A program made the translations under genes and the position numbers. DNA of 46,648 nt. Source: Gammaproteobacteria bacterium RBG_16_51_14. Lineage in GTDB: Bacteria; Pseudomonadota; Gammaproteobacteria; Eutrophobiales; Eutrophobiaceae. Position 1 is the stretch's first letter. The number at the start of each line of letters is the position of its first letter. Below, piece by piece: positions 27,138 through 46,648 of this stretch. The DNA is taken from the NCBI GenBank assembly GCA_001802375.1, contig MGXK01000019.1:1-46648 (forward strand). Direction: 5' to 3'. The notes below the pieces were generated by a model. It saw nothing but the letters and a program-made list of their open reading frames with translations, was not told the origin of the DNA and made no database searches.

Positions 27138-28928
27138 TTAATTTGTATCAGGACTTGCTGTGAGCGTAAAGACAAGAATCTCATCACCGACTGGATAGCC
27201 AAACAGTTGATTTCCCCCTGCCGCAACGGCTACATATTGTTTTCCATCCATTGCATAGGTAATGGGCGGGGCGTTTACTCCATATCGGCTGTGGTAAGTC
27301 CACATGCGCCTGCCATTGCGGGCATCAAAGGCATCAAAATCACCGTTTCCTTCCCCGGTAAAAACAAGTCCACCTGCCGTTGCCAATACGCCCCCGACCA
27401 TCGGGTCTTCAATCTTTTGTTGCCAGAGTATGCTACCGGTGTTGACTGAGATTGCGGTCAGGAAACCCCAGTCGGGTTCATTTGCCTGTCTGAAAAAGGT
27501 ATAGCTCTCCCGGGGTTGGTCCGGTTTCGGATCCAGTTTACGGCTGAAGAAGAGTGAGGGTTGATGGATCCCTGCAATATAAACAGTCTCTGCCTGTGGA
27601 TGATAACTGACTGGTGACCATGATGTAGCCCCAAGGGTGCCGGGAACGATGCGAACGCCTTCAGTCGTTGGCTGTGCAAAAAGGTTTGTCTGTTGGACAA
27701 ATGGTTCCGATTTTAACAACAATGCCCCTGTCTTACGGTCATGGACAAAGAACCAGCCGAGTTTACTCGCCTGACCAACGGCCTTGATAATCCTGCCATC
27801 TTTTTTATAGTCAAAAAGCACCGGTGGACTTGCGATATCGTAGCCCCAGCGATCATGTGGTACCTGCTGGTAATACCAGTGCAGTTTCCCGGTATCGATT
27901 TCGAGCGCGATCAGACTGACGGTATACAGATTGTCACCGGGCCGGGTGGTGTCATCCATTTGGGGTGAGGGGTTGCCGGTTCCTACATAAAGCAGACCGA
28001 GTTCAGGATCGATGGCGGGAGTTGTAAAGATTGAACCACCACCGGGTTTCCAGTTCTCCTGGCGATCGGAAAACAGGCGTTTTTCTTCTTCGATATCACG
28101 TCCGAGCGGTATCCCGTCCGGGGTCGTCTGGCGCCATACCCCCTCCCAACCCAGTTCCGGTATGCTATACCAGCGCCAGATCTCCCGTCCTGTTTCAGCA
28201 TCATAGGCAACCAGGAACCCTCGCAGGCCATGTCTGTTTCCGGAAAACCCGCCTACAGACAGCCTGGAATCGCCATTTTCTTCCAGTTCGAGATGAAGAC
28301 CATAGCCGGCGCCGGTTACACCGACAAATACCTTGCCATCAAATACCTGTGGGGCGAGGTTGGCACTGTAACCGGTCTGGCCGGTTTGTACAGCGCCCTT
28401 CAATTCTGCAAAACCAAGCACGGGTCCAGGTATTTCTCCACCCTCTGCAGAGATGTCTGCGATCTCCCTGTCCCAGACTACTGCGCCTGATTTTTGATCA
28501 AGTGCAATCAAACGTGCATCGATGGTTACGGTATAGACCTTGCCATTGGCAACGGCCGGACCACGATTGGCAGGCCCACAGCAAAATTTGTCCCCCCGGA
28601 GCCGGTGCCGGTAACGCCATATTTCCTGGCCACTCTTTGCCTCGAGGGCAATCACATCATTAAATGGTGTGGTGATATACATCACACCATTCAATACAAT
28701 GGGACTGGTCTGGAAGGTTCCGTGTTTACCCGTGTGATAGGACCAGGCGAGGCCGAGTTGTTCGACATTTCCCTGATTGATCTGGTCCAGTGGACTGTAA
28801 CGTTGATTACTGTAATCTCTGCCATACAGTGGCCAGTCTGTATCAGCGCCACACCCGCAGGCAAAGGTGCTTATGGTGAAAGACAAACTGGCCAGGACCC
28901 AGGATTTGATATTAATAAAAGGGTTCAT
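27138..28928 (-). CDS. PQQ-dependent dehydrogenase, periplasmic
   Basis: Eight-bladed quinoprotein of 596 aa with an N-terminal export signal (cleavage near FACGCGA). Vicinal Cys116-Cys117 in KFCCGPANRG form the disulfide ring over PQQ, metal-ligand candidates are the Glu in GGEIPGP and Asn319 in GTGNPSP, and several Trp-docking motifs (DAETGREIW, EIDTGKLHW) mark the blades. In the active-site segment, HDRWGYDIAS at 358-367, the usual WD is WG (Gly362), with Asp364 two residues on. Substrate is therefore unclear: alcohol, aldehyde-sugar type or other. No cytochrome domain is fused. Divergent from a lipoprotein gene. Confidence 0.85.
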   Translation of the reverse strand: MNPFINIKSWVLASLSFTISTFACGCGADTDWPLYGRDYSNQRYSPLDQINQGNVEQLGLAWSYHTGKHGTFQTSPIVLNGVMYITTPFNDVIALEAKSGQEIWRYRHRLRGDKFCCGPANRGPAVANGKVYTVTIDARLIALDQKSGAVVWDREIADISAEGGEIPGPVLGFAELKGAVQTGQTGYSANLAPQVFDGKVFVGVTGAGYGLHLELEENGDSRLSVGGFSGNRHGLRGFLVAYDAETGREIWRWYSIPELGWEGVWRQTTPDGIPLGRDIEEEKRLFSDRQENWKPGGGSIFTTPAIDPELGLLYVGTGNPSPQMDDTTRPGDNLYTVSLIALEIDTGKLHWYYQQVPHDRWGYDIASPPVLFDYKKDGRIIKAVGQASKLGWFFVHDRKTGALLLKSEPFVQQTNLFAQPTTEGVRIVPGTLGATSWSPVSYHPQAETVYIAGIHQPSLFFSRKLDPKPDQPRESYTFFRQANEPDWGFLTAISVNTGSILWQQKIEDPMVGGVLATAGGLVFTGEGNGDFDAFDARNGRRMWTYHSRYGVNAPPITYAMDGKQYVAVAAGGNQLFGYPVGDEILVFTLTASPDTN

Positions 28929-29074: not shown

Positions 29075-29806
29075 ATGTATCTTCGAAAACCTTCCTGTTC
29101 AAGGCGTCCATCTCCTGGCCAGTACCTGTTTCTGCTCGTTGCCGTATTGACCAACAGCAGTTGTTTGAGTGAAAAAAACAGTTATTTTCCACTGGAAGAG
29201 GGTTTGTCATGGCATTATTTCGTCGAAATGACCACCATGGACGGTATCAACAGACAAAAATACATGATCGTTAATCAAGCACCAGGATACAAGGAAGGAC
29301 AGCAGGTTTTTGTACGCAAATCTCTGGATGGCACATTGCTTTATTACAAGAAAACGGAGGAAGGGATTTTATTTTTTGGCAAGGAGGACACATCCGGGAT
29401 CAGGCCGGTATTTACCAGGGATGAACACTATGTTTTCCGCTATCCATTAACGACCGGTTCAGAATGGAACACGGTAACCCTGACCAGGTTGCTAAAAAAA
29501 ACCGGGCCGCCACAGAAAACGGAATTCCAGATTGTTGCTGAAGTGCCGGTGACCAGCCGGGTGGAGGCAACAGATGATACGATCAACGTCCCGGCGGGGC
29601 TGTTTCATGGCTGTGTAAGGATCCGGATGCAGGGTTATGCGTACAAGAATGCGGGTAACTATATCGGGCTTACCATTGTCAGCGTCAATGAAACCAGTTG
29701 GTATGCACCAGGTATCGGCTTGATAAAAATGGTGCGTGAGGAAACGACGGAAAGCCAGGCGCTGGACAAGGGAAAGATGACGATTGAATTGGAAAAGTTC
29801 GGCTGA
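29075..29806 (+). CDS. Predicted lipoprotein of unknown function
   Basis: A 243-aa exported protein. A basic start, hydrophobic LFLLVAVLT and Cys in NSSC suggest a lipoprotein signal, although the lipobox is poor. The mature part is beta-rich with YFPLEEGLSWHYFVEM, INVPAGLFHGCVRIRM and a WYAPGIGLIKMVREE end, a pattern I associate with beta-barrel-like lipoproteins of unknown role. Divergent from the PQQ dehydrogenase (146 bp apart) and convergent with fau. No known function recognised. Confidence 0.6.
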   Translation: MYLRKPSCSRRPSPGQYLFLLVAVLTNSSCLSEKNSYFPLEEGLSWHYFVEMTTMDGINRQKYMIVNQAPGYKEGQQVFVRKSLDGTLLYYKKTEEGILFFGKEDTSGIRPVFTRDEHYVFRYPLTTGSEWNTVTLTRLLKKTGPPQKTEFQIVAEVPVTSRVEATDDTINVPAGLFHGCVRIRMQGYAYKNAGNYIGLTIVSVNETSWYAPGIGLIKMVREETTESQALDKGKMTIELEKFG

Positions 29807-43360: not shown

Positions 43361-44185
43361 CTAGAGTTTGACAGGATAGGATGAATTGAAATGGTTGTCC
43401 TTGTTGTCAATCACATCAACCGTCATATCAGCCTCTTTTTCCGGAACAAAGTAGAAACGGAAACTCGGGTCCTGACTGATAGCAAACGTCATCTTGGCCT
43501 TCATCACCATCTTGTTGTCATAGTTAATATTCATATCGGTAACATAGTAAGGCGGTGGGTATACGCCGGTTTTATCGTCCGGGGCCATACCGGTGATATT
43601 GGGGTGCCTGATTTTTAATTGCATCAGGTTCGGTTTGCCAAGTTCAAGTTCTCCCACTGTCTCCATTTTCATCTGACCGAGATTCGCCTTGGATTCCGCG
43701 ACGCTTTTACCTGGAGGGGCTGAACATCCCCCCTTGGTACGGATAAAGCTTTTGGCCATAACCAGATCGCCATTATTCATTTCGGCAATGACCCTGAAGT
43801 AACTGTATTCATTGACCCGGACCCGCATGGCCAGATCGGCGCGACCGGCATCCGGGGTAAACTCGAAAACACCGACCAGCGGGATCGGATTCTTGTCTAT
43901 GAAGATGTGCAGCTTCTGGATGAAGTTGTCCCCGGTCTGCGTGATCTTGGTGTGGATGGAGACTGGAACAATGGCGCCATCTTCAGCACGGTAAGGTGCC
44001 TTGATTTCCAGGATATCCTGGTTGGCCCCCTCAAGGATTCCCCTGTCCTGAAAAGTAGCAGGGCGGATGTTTTCTTCCCAGACTTGATCCGACAGTTCCT
44101 GGCGATAGTTTGGTGAGGAGACATCGGCATCAGCCAATACCGTCCCTGTGCAACCCAACAAAGACAGGCAAACAAGGGTATTCAT
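43361..44185 (-). CDS. Quinoprotein dehydrogenase-associated SoxYZ-like carrier
   Basis: A fused SoxY-SoxZ-type protein of 274 aa, exported by MNTLVCLSLLGCTGTVLA (signal peptidase I at LA/DA, or possibly lipobox LLGC). The SoxY-like part (about 40-155) ends in Lys-Gly-Gly-Cys154 (TKGGCSAP), the counterpart of the SoxY GGCGG swinging arm whose Cys carries the cargo. The SoxZ-like part (about 185-272) shows LKIRHPNITGMAPD and ends FNSSYPV. Known relatives are annotated as carriers next to PQQ dehydrogenases. The cargo is unknown. Start at 44185 is preferred over 44212 because the signal peptide begins there and AGAGAT precedes it. Confidence 0.88.
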   Translation of the reverse strand: MNTLVCLSLLGCTGTVLADADVSSPNYRQELSDQVWEENIRPATFQDRGILEGANQDILEIKAPYRAEDGAIVPVSIHTKITQTGDNFIQKLHIFIDKNPIPLVGVFEFTPDAGRADLAMRVRVNEYSYFRVIAEMNNGDLVMAKSFIRTKGGCSAPPGKSVAESKANLGQMKMETVGELELGKPNLMQLKIRHPNITGMAPDDKTGVYPPPYYVTDMNINYDNKMVMKAKMTFAISQDPSFRFYFVPEKEADMTVDVIDNKDNHFNSSYPVKL

Positions 44186-44612
44186 GGTTGATCTCTGTAA
44201 AACGTTATACATACGTATTGCCCTCCGGCAAGATCGGTTACTTGTTATAGGACGTATTTATTGCGCTTGTGGATGTATTCGCTCGCCCTGAACCACCTGC
44301 TAAAAAGCTGTGACTGTCTGTTTATGCTGGAGTTCAAGGCATCGCAAAGTTAAACGTAAATGAAAGTATAAAATTTTATTTGGAATATACCAATTTTTGG
44401 TAATCACGAAACCCTCTATAGTTCAATCATTTTATCATAAAATGATCGCATCTTATTAATTTATAAGTTTATATTATTTCAAGTTAAAGTTACTTCCCAA
44501 TTTAGACTGCATCTGATTGAATATGCTTGCACTGGGTAGGAAAATTTCCTAAAATTCGTCCGCGTAAAGGTGTAACATGTAATTAGAGACATCAGGGATG
44601 TTTTCATAAACG

Positions 44613-44671: not shown

Positions 44672-45019
44672 CTGCACGCTTCATATGTTGAATAACAAAC
44701 AAAAAAAGAAAGGTCACAGGTATTTTGTACAACGTATCACATAGTGAAGAGACTTACATGCGTTGCACAAGTACTGACGCAAGGCATACCTACATAGAAT
44801 AATGTCTGGCACACCACAAACCCGTAGTACCAACATTCCGAGTATCTATTACCCTGCCATCACCTTGGTGTCTTACACGTACAGATACAGACACAAGTTT
44901 GACTGTCTTTCCGTATCGATTTACAACCCCTTGATGACTTTTGATCTCGAGTCAGCAAGAGGTTTTTATAAGTAACAATGAGATCAACACATGATCAACC
45001 AATAATAGAGGAGGAGGTC

Positions 45020-46648
45020 ATGAGGAAATTTACTAGTAAATGGTTAGTCGCCGCCTTGGCCCTGGCTGTTTCTGGTTCGGCTTTTGCTAATGATGGGGTT
45101 AGGAAGCTGATTCAGGATCCAAACTACTGGGCTTACCCGGGGCACGACTATAGCAACAACCGGTATTCTGAACTGCAGCAGATCAACAACAAGAATGCCG
45201 GTAAACTACAGGTTGCGTGGACGTTCTCAACAGGCATCCTGCGTGGTCATGAAGGTGGTCCCCTGGTCCTGCCCGGTTCTGCAATCGGACTGGAATCTGA
45301 CCATCTCTTCATCCATTCAGCGTTCCCGAACAACGTATTCGCAGTCAACCTGGATTCGCTGGATATCACCTGGATGTATGAGCCGCAGCAGGATTTTGAT
45401 GAAACCGTTCCGGTCATGTGCTGTGACACGGTCAACCGTGGTCTAGCCTATGGTGACGGCAAGATCTACCTGCAACAGGCTGATACCGTCCTGGTGGCAT
45501 TAAAGGCCAATGACGGGTCCGTAGTCTGGTCTACCAAGAATGGTGATCCCAAGAAGGGTCAGACCAACACCAACGCACCCCATCCCATGAAGGACAAGGT
45601 CTTCACCGGTATCGCCGGTGCCGAGTTCGGTGTCCGCTGCTGGATGGCCGCCTACAATGCCAGCGATGGTAGCCTGGCCTGGAAGGCATACAGCATGGGT
45701 CCGGATGAAGAAATCCTGTTTGATGACAAGACCACATCCATGGGCAAGGCGGTCGGCAAGGACTCAAGCCTGAAGACATGGTGTGCCGACAAGGACTGGA
45801 AGGCCCCTGCACGAGGACCAAGCAGCTGTAAATCACTGAGTGATCAGTGGAAGACAGGTGGTGGTTCAACCTGGGGCTGGTGGGCAGCCGACTTCGATGA
45901 AAACCTGATGTATTACGGTTCAGGTAACCCGAGCACCTGGAACCCGGTCGTTCGTCCGGGTGACAACAAGTGGTCCATGACCATGTTCGCTCGTGACATC
46001 GACACCGGTATCGCCCGCTGGGTCTATCAGATGACGCCCCATGATGAGTGGGACTATGACGGCATCAACGAAATGATCCTGGCTGACCAGAACATCGGTG
46101 GCAAGACCCGCAAGACAGTGGTCCACTTCAACCGTAATGGTTATGGCTACACCGTCGACCGCGTCAGTGGTGAACTGCTGGTTGCCGAGAAGTTTGATCC
46201 GGCCGTCAACTGGTCAACCCATGTTGACATGAAGACCGGCTATCCGCAGACCGTTGACAAGTTCAGCACCCACCTCAATGGTGAGGATGTGGTGACCAAG
46301 GACCTCGTTCCGGCCGCGCTGGGTTCCAAGAATGAGAACCCGGCATCCTACAGCCCGAAGAACGGTCTGTTCTACGTCGGCACGAACCATGTCGCCATGA
46401 CCTACGAACCGGTCAGCTATTCTGCAGGTGGTAATCAGTATGTTGCAGGCCAGGCCTACGTGAATGCGAACCTGACCATGTATCCTGCTGGTGCAGTATG
46501 CCCGGATTGCCCGAACAACAATGCAGCCAAGGACAACATGGGTAACATGATTGCCTGGGATGCCACTAAGGGCAAGATTGTCTGGTCTATACCGGAACAG
46601 TGGTCAGTATGGAGCGGTATCCTCTCCACGGCTGGCGACGTCGTCTGG
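45020..46648 (+). CDS. xoxF: XoxF-type lanthanide-dependent methanol dehydrogenase (partial)
   Basis: PQQ quinoprotein oxidising methanol in the periplasm, cut by the window end after 543 codons. Signal peptide of about 25 residues ends SAFA. The vicinal Cys134-Cys135 ([11 protein letters not shown]) form the PQQ-capping ring, and the active-site segment [13 protein letters not shown] carries catalytic Asp345 plus Asp347, the extra acid that marks lanthanide (XoxF) enzymes; calcium MxaF has Ala there. A loop at 255-270 carries an added Cys pair relative to usual XoxF sequences. GGAGGAGG before the ATG is strong. Cytochrome and XoxJ partners, if present, lie beyond the window. Confidence 0.93.

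Follow-up and report, generated by a model that had tools for sequence, protein, structure and literature searches.

What can a PQQ dehydrogenase do when its catalytic Asp is replaced by Gly? Enzymes of this fold are described as needing both a metal ion and the catalytic Asp, the ion, calcium or a lanthanide, being regarded as obligatory; metal dependence is inferred from sequence by the presence of a D-x-D or D-x-A motif. The question is raised by a gene at 27138..28928 (minus strand) of the window, by which we mean the whole stretch of DNA that was analysed (46,648 nucleotides, Gammaproteobacteria bacterium RBG_16_51_14). The gene is one long open reading frame with an ATG start, and its product, P0001, is a PQQ-type eight-bladed beta-propeller protein of 596 amino acids with an apparent N-terminal signal sequence.

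P0001 belongs to the PQQ beta-propeller superfamily, with 299.1 bits against Pfam PF01011 (gathering score 26.7). Against the NCBIfam model of methanol/ethanol-type PQQ dehydrogenases, TIGR03075, it reaches 445.9 bits, just under the cut-off of 480.05; a relative that has kept the Asp, from locus L053, scores 481.2 bits. Against TIGR04528 (acido_non_PQQ) it reaches 370.8 bits, under the cut-off of 650, and an ordinary alcohol dehydrogenase (ADH) scores 338.3 bits on the same model. An AlphaFold2 model of P0001, built with a 69-sequence alignment, has a pLDDT of 87 and a pTM of 0.90. The best PDB match to this model found by VIA-align is PedH (6zcw; Z 43.2, rmsd 1.9, 485 aligned residues), and XoxF structures follow at Z 41-42, where matches within 1 Z count as tied. 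In structural alignments the type I PQQ alcohol dehydrogenases as a group, that is PedH and the QH-ADH/ADH-II enzymes (6zcv/6zcw, 1kb0, 1flg, 1kv9), share the fold for the greater part of the chain, at Z 41-43 and 34-37% identity. By its predicted structure, then, P0001 is a quinoprotein dehydrogenase propeller.

An earlier, sequence-only reading of this DNA had proposed that Gly362 stands in place of the catalytic Asp, with codons that leave no ambiguity, and that Asp364 lies where XoxF has its lanthanide-binding Asp. We found all three points borne out. The motif of P0001 is QVPHDRWGYDIAS (pattern match at 27837-27866), and pattern matching places the codons TGG GGC TAC GAT at 27837-27848, with GGC for Gly362 at 27843..27845 and GAT for Asp364 at 27837..27839 (these and all residues of P0001 below are encoded on the minus strand). 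We name active-site residues by what we take to be their MxaF numbers; the columns themselves come from the alignment. In the phmmer alignments to 1kb0, 1flg, 1yiq, 1kv9 and 6zcv, which are the five sequences compared residue by residue out of 26 PDB PQQ dehydrogenases among the matches listed, the Asp of WD(Y/F) is aligned to Gly362 every time. An hhalign comparison of 14 proteins of the clade described below with 10 ordinary ones sets Gly362 on Asp279 of the ADH from locus L055. Because the five phmmer alignments and hhalign agree, we rejected the alternative that a different Asp occupies the catalytic position. The catalytic Asp of MxaF is Asp303, and the lanthanide of XoxF is held by another Asp two positions further on (PMC9291206). 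P0001 thus has neither the catalytic Asp of the methanol/ethanol-type enzymes nor the D-x-D of the lanthanide-dependent XoxF/ExaF type; it has G-x-D.

The clade was sampled by 59 sequences whose mutual identities are below 80% or close to that. Residue 362 is Gly in 57 of them, Asn in one and Asp in another, and all four Gly codons are in use (GGC 35, GGT 15, GGA 4, GGG 3). Residue 364 is Asp in all 59.

The same reading held that the Cys-Cys ring and the other ligands are kept. For the cysteines this is correct, since the vicinal pair Cys116-Cys117 (28578..28583) is present in P0001 and in 57/59 clade members, but for several of the other ligands it is not. In hhalign the metal-ligand Glu of GGE[YF]G falls on Gly208 of a GAGYG loop (28305..28307; 58 Gly and 1 Ala in the clade). 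MAFFT instead places gaps in the region of the Glu loop, and its metal-Glu column falls on Arg232, with R 21, G 17, K 5, E 1, D 1 and others among the 59. Under neither alignment is there a conserved carboxylate at this position, and P0001 has none there. Since Arg or Lys is found there in 26/59, we considered that Arg232 might stand in for the metal, but this is no more than an idea: the position is variable, most of the close orthologues have Gly, and hhalign places the Glu elsewhere. The Glu55 that contacts PQQ (Glu70 of 1kb0) is Gln73 in P0001 (28710..28712) and Gln in all 59 clade members, as against Glu in 8/10 outgroup proteins. The Thr159 column holds Asn, Ala or another residue in 59/59 and never Thr. 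Finally, the Trp that stacks on PQQ is Phe301 in P0001 (28026..28028); the position is aromatic throughout the clade (W 53, Y 5, F 1).

After the lost Glu, hhalign opens a gap for an insert of about 24 residues (residues 210-233, 28230..28301). It contains His212, which is present in 56/59 clade members, and it is modelled as a beta hairpin with strands 212-217 and 220-227, at a pLDDT of about 60-80. On grounds of sequence likeness we considered an origin by tandem duplication of the GGEYG loop, in which case the insert would be a copied segment.

The remaining contacts are strictly conserved. P0001 and all 59 clade members keep the PQQ-contacting Arg122 (28563..28565), the metal-ligand Asn319 (27972..27974), the PQQ-contacting Lys389 (27762..27764; Lys or Arg elsewhere) and Trp437 (27618..27620), and His358, Asp359, Trp361 and Tyr363 are equally invariant. 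P0001 therefore has the vicinal Cys pair, the PQQ-binding Arg and Lys and the metal Asn expected of a methanol/ethanol-type PQQ dehydrogenase, and lacks the metal-ligand Glu. Beside the conserved Asn319, Asp364 would be the sole remaining carboxylate of the old metal and base set. Two divergent paralogues from the family of the window genome (L033, L034) have WGYD but KAG in place of the vicinal Cys pair, and may thus have moved still further from the function of a quinoprotein.

Compared with known enzymes, P0001 is like PedH, QH-ADH and ADH-II in the Cys-Cys, Arg, Lys, Asn and Trp of the PQQ site, and unlike them in its replaced catalytic Asp, metal Glu and Glu55 and in the insert after the Glu loop. 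Like XoxF (4mae, 6dam, 7o6z) it keeps the second Asp of D-x-D, as Asp364, together with Asn319; unlike XoxF it has G-x-D and has lost the metal Glu. XoxF1 binds its metal through Glu173, Asp315 and Asp317 (PMC8546591); P0001 has no counterparts of Glu173 and Asp315, and its Glu55 is neutralised.

The gene is present in 19 of the 37 sampled genomes of the window genome's family. In 18 of these the locus covers the site, each time with WGYD; the other carrier has a fragmented copy. Named genomes, some of them shared with the same-family set, were then scanned with the peptides TGNPSPQM and QQVPHDRW, which exclude residue 362. Among the best 80 of 265 confirmed loci, 79 have WGYD and one has WDYD. 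These 80 loci span Alpha-, Beta- and Gammaproteobacteria and come from Thiotrichaceae MAGs, Neptuniibacter, Methylophilaceae, other Betaproteobacteria, Hyphomicrobium and others; isolates of Novimethylophilus, Neptuniibacter and Hyphomicrobium sulfonivorans are among the carriers. A pattern that leaves residue 362 open (coded as RRN, so that Asp, Asn and Ser would also fit) matched nine times, in 8 of 369 genomes, and every match has Gly.

The earlier reading had suggested a phylogeny as a check on whether WGYD is a clade feature, and it is one. The motif columns were removed before the tree was computed (a quick method with midpoint root, long branches flagged). In this tree the 59 clade members, of which 57 have WGYD, one WNYD and one WDYD, form one branch with an SH-aLRT of 97, separate from the WDLD and the WDYD/WDFT proteins. 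We therefore rejected the idea that P0001 is a lone oddity. The protein is also under purifying selection: NG86 dN/dS is 0.017-0.136 in 14 of 16 close pairs, and the other two pairs were not computable. This strong constraint, together with the use of all four Gly codons, indicates that the Gly is maintained. Since the swap persists throughout a broad family found in many bacteria, it resembles a redesign more than damage to a gene.

Two members of the clade deserve a separate mention. The sole Asp-keeping (WDYD) gene among the best 80 of 265 named loci, L053:8992-10695, pairs in the tree with L052, a WGYD gene from the same MAG, and its Asp could be either ancestral or regained. The window genome itself carries a second clade member, L031:6385-8196 (G000:C87), which is about 50% identical to P0001 and has WNYD; by eye, transposase-like open reading frames lie upstream of it and ferredoxin-like ones downstream.

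Next, we asked whether the carriers have access to PQQ. The window genome has pqqE (565.2 bits). Within its family pqqE is found over the cut-off in 17/19 carriers versus 9/18 non-carriers (Fisher p 0.013), and one further same-family carrier has pqqE split in two. However, XoxF shows exactly the same counts (17/19 and 9/18; at least 70% identity, fragments counted), so the link to pqqE is not specific to the WGYD gene and may reflect the other quinoproteins of the host. Two genomes, G002 and G035, have the WGYD gene and pqqE without a close XoxF.

Among named carriers we tested 47 genomes, one per locus for 47 of the best 80 of 265 loci. Of these, 35 have pqqE over the cut-off and 8 of the other 12 have a homologue of the PQQ importer PqqU (E <1e-60), which leaves 43/47 with a visible source of PQQ. 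Neither gene was found at these thresholds in G415, G422, G425 and G444; G415 holds a fragment of pqqE, and the isolate Neptuniibacter pectenicola is one of these four genomes. Ten genomes that lack pqqE were searched for relatives of ordinary PQQ dehydrogenases and do contain them, so PQQ is probably obtained somehow.

In four loci (L053, L058, L094 and L098) a PqqU-type TonB receptor gene lies directly upstream of the clade gene and in the same orientation; by longest open reading frames, the space after the stop codon amounts to about 50, about 350, 2 and 2 nt, respectively. The receptors of L053, L098 and L058 score 346-467 bits against PqqU/YncD (6v81, 9c4o), while their next best matches reach 52-89; for L094, the receptor of the genome shares 46% identity with an L109 receptor that is itself a PqqU match at 564 bits. 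None of the four genomes has pqqE over the cut-off. This adjacency is suggestive but no proof, since an ordinary PQQ-ADH is close by in L058, L094 and L098 and the L053 gene is the WDYD copy; PqqU beside the clade gene may serve other proteins. L109 was examined as a fifth such locus and rejected: the genome has one PqqU match at 1e-60, its gene lies four genes away on the other strand, and the abutting receptor is another TonB receptor.

Apart from this, the neighbourhood says little. We were not able to find a universal partner gene across the same-family loci and the best 80 of 265 named loci. In the window's family the gene lies amid what we take, by recognising the proteins, to be the rpsP-rimM-trmD housekeeping genes, so its position is uninformative there. 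In 9/19 same-family carriers the contig of the WGYD gene also has XoxF at a distance of no more than 20 kb, with other genes in between. The window has such a gene at 44978..46648 (plus strand), cut by the window end, which served as comparison protein; it codes for an ordinary XoxF-type PQQ dehydrogenase (HDEWDYDG) with 550.3 bits on TIGR03075, over the cut-off of 480.05. Beside it, at 43361-44212 (minus strand), is a SoxYZ-like quinoprotein-associated carrier (TIGR04557, 238.1 bits over 140). At 29075-29806 (plus strand) we see a putative lipoprotein with a weak DUF3108-like match, whose homologues lie 1-4 genes from the WGYD gene in 13 of the best 80 of 265 named loci as well as in the window, in two arrangements. 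In L065, L069, L091, L102 and L104 a MotA/ExbB-like gene (PF01618, one representative tested) and two uncharacterised genes follow the WGYD gene directly on the same strand.

How should these results be read? The earlier reading had suggested a shifted Asp, a different substrate or a role as sensor, and any of the three may hold. The simplest explanation, that the gene is decaying or that Gly362 is a sequencing error, has little in its favour beyond one relative, G003, with a fragmented copy. We rejected it as almost certainly wrong, given that the residue is common to 79 of the best 80 of 265 named loci, that four Gly codons are in use and that dN/dS is well below 1. P0001 could also be an ordinary lanthanide-dependent alcohol dehydrogenase in which Asp364 acts as base and the lanthanide is held with Asn319 and PQQ. 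The invariance of both residues, the many carriers that are methylotrophs by name and the lanthanide enzymes PedH and XoxF among the closest structures are consistent with this. On the other hand, XoxF has four protein ligands, of which only two are left once the metal Glu and the base Asp are gone, and hhalign finds an almost invariant Gly at the Glu position, which makes this explanation quite improbable. Alternatively, the propeller might be empty of PQQ and, in the manner of BamB or the acido-empty-quinoproteins, serve for structure or binding. Group A of the latter (TIGR04528) belongs to the same superfamily, is presumed PQQ-free by the name of the model and has hosts without PQQ synthesis. 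The score of P0001 on that model, the loss of Glu55, Thr159 and the metal Glu and the missing Cys pair of L033 and L034 would fit. However, the score is below the cut-off and little above that of an ordinary ADH, the host has pqqE, and Arg122, Lys389, Asn319, Trp437 and the aromatic stacker are kept in 59/59 and the Cys pair in 57/59; we consider an empty propeller improbable.

A serious rival to a catalytic role is that P0001 holds PQQ and turns nothing over, being a store, a delivery factor or a sensor for the ordinary quinoproteins of the cell. In its favour, the base and the metal Glu are gone, and the residues that anchor PQQ are still there. PqqU adjoins the gene in genomes without pqqE, and putative two-component genes, as judged from their sequences (a sensor kinase and a regulator, divergent), lie nearby in 7 of the best 80 of 265 named loci. 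Yet the invariant His358-Asp359, Trp361, Tyr363 and Asp364 go beyond the PQQ anchors and fit catalysis better, the WGYD gene adjoins an ADH in few loci only, and PQQ, which is buried in the quinoprotein propeller fold, would suit a carrier poorly. We regard such a role as possible but rather unlikely.

The reading that we favour, tentatively and with somewhat less than even confidence, is that P0001 belongs to a conserved and widespread branch of the type I quinoproteins that binds PQQ, from which the metal and catalytic carboxylates have been removed, and that it is a non-canonical periplasmic oxidoreductase with little or no metal. Gly362 would have taken the place of Asp303, Gln73 that of Glu55, and Gly208 or a variable residue that of the metal Glu. 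With base and metal carboxylates stripped, P0001 could not follow the textbook mechanism. It would still hold PQQ in the centre of the propeller and would work without the calcium- or lanthanide-assisted, Asp-based alcohol oxidation of methanol dehydrogenase, its old metal site containing little metal or none. The parts of this reading are not equally firm. That P0001 binds PQQ is likely, judging from the conserved anchors. That it has lost the metal is rather probable: the carboxylates that hold the cation are gone and the PQQ anchors are kept, which, from sequence, fits a PQQ site without metal; the retained Asp364 and Asn319 would make a weakly held lanthanide possible. That it is catalytic and not passive seems slightly the better guess. 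We favour an oxidoreductase because residues beyond the PQQ anchors (His358, Asp359, Tyr363 and Asp364) are invariant.

Loss of the diagnostic motifs is not new as a general phenomenon. According to the accessible part of PMC11996626, 26.5% of 6,328 ocean PQQ dehydrogenase sequences have neither the lanthanide nor the calcium motif; that part does not describe this clade, its Gly, the loss of the Glu or the insert. We did not find the clade described in the literature searched, which took in few of the subscription papers, nor in the accessible parts of PMC6028718 and PMC12124388.

The function of the clade can be tested, since there are cultured carriers (Novimethylophilus, Neptuniibacter, Hyphomicrobium sulfonivorans), and L052 and L053, in one MAG, are a natural pair for testing the Gly/Asp change. 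It is conceivable, if somewhat doubtful, that this Alpha-, Beta- and Gammaproteobacterial clade carries out PQQ redox chemistry without calcium or lanthanide, its carboxylates replaced by Gly, Gly and Gln, with a different general base and a different substrate. A large conserved branch that has the PQQ pocket and lacks the carboxylates would be one of two things, a metal-free type of this fold or a pseudoenzyme that handles PQQ and is common among methylotrophs. In both cases, tallies of "PQQ alcohol dehydrogenases" that are based on homology alone would take in proteins that do something else.
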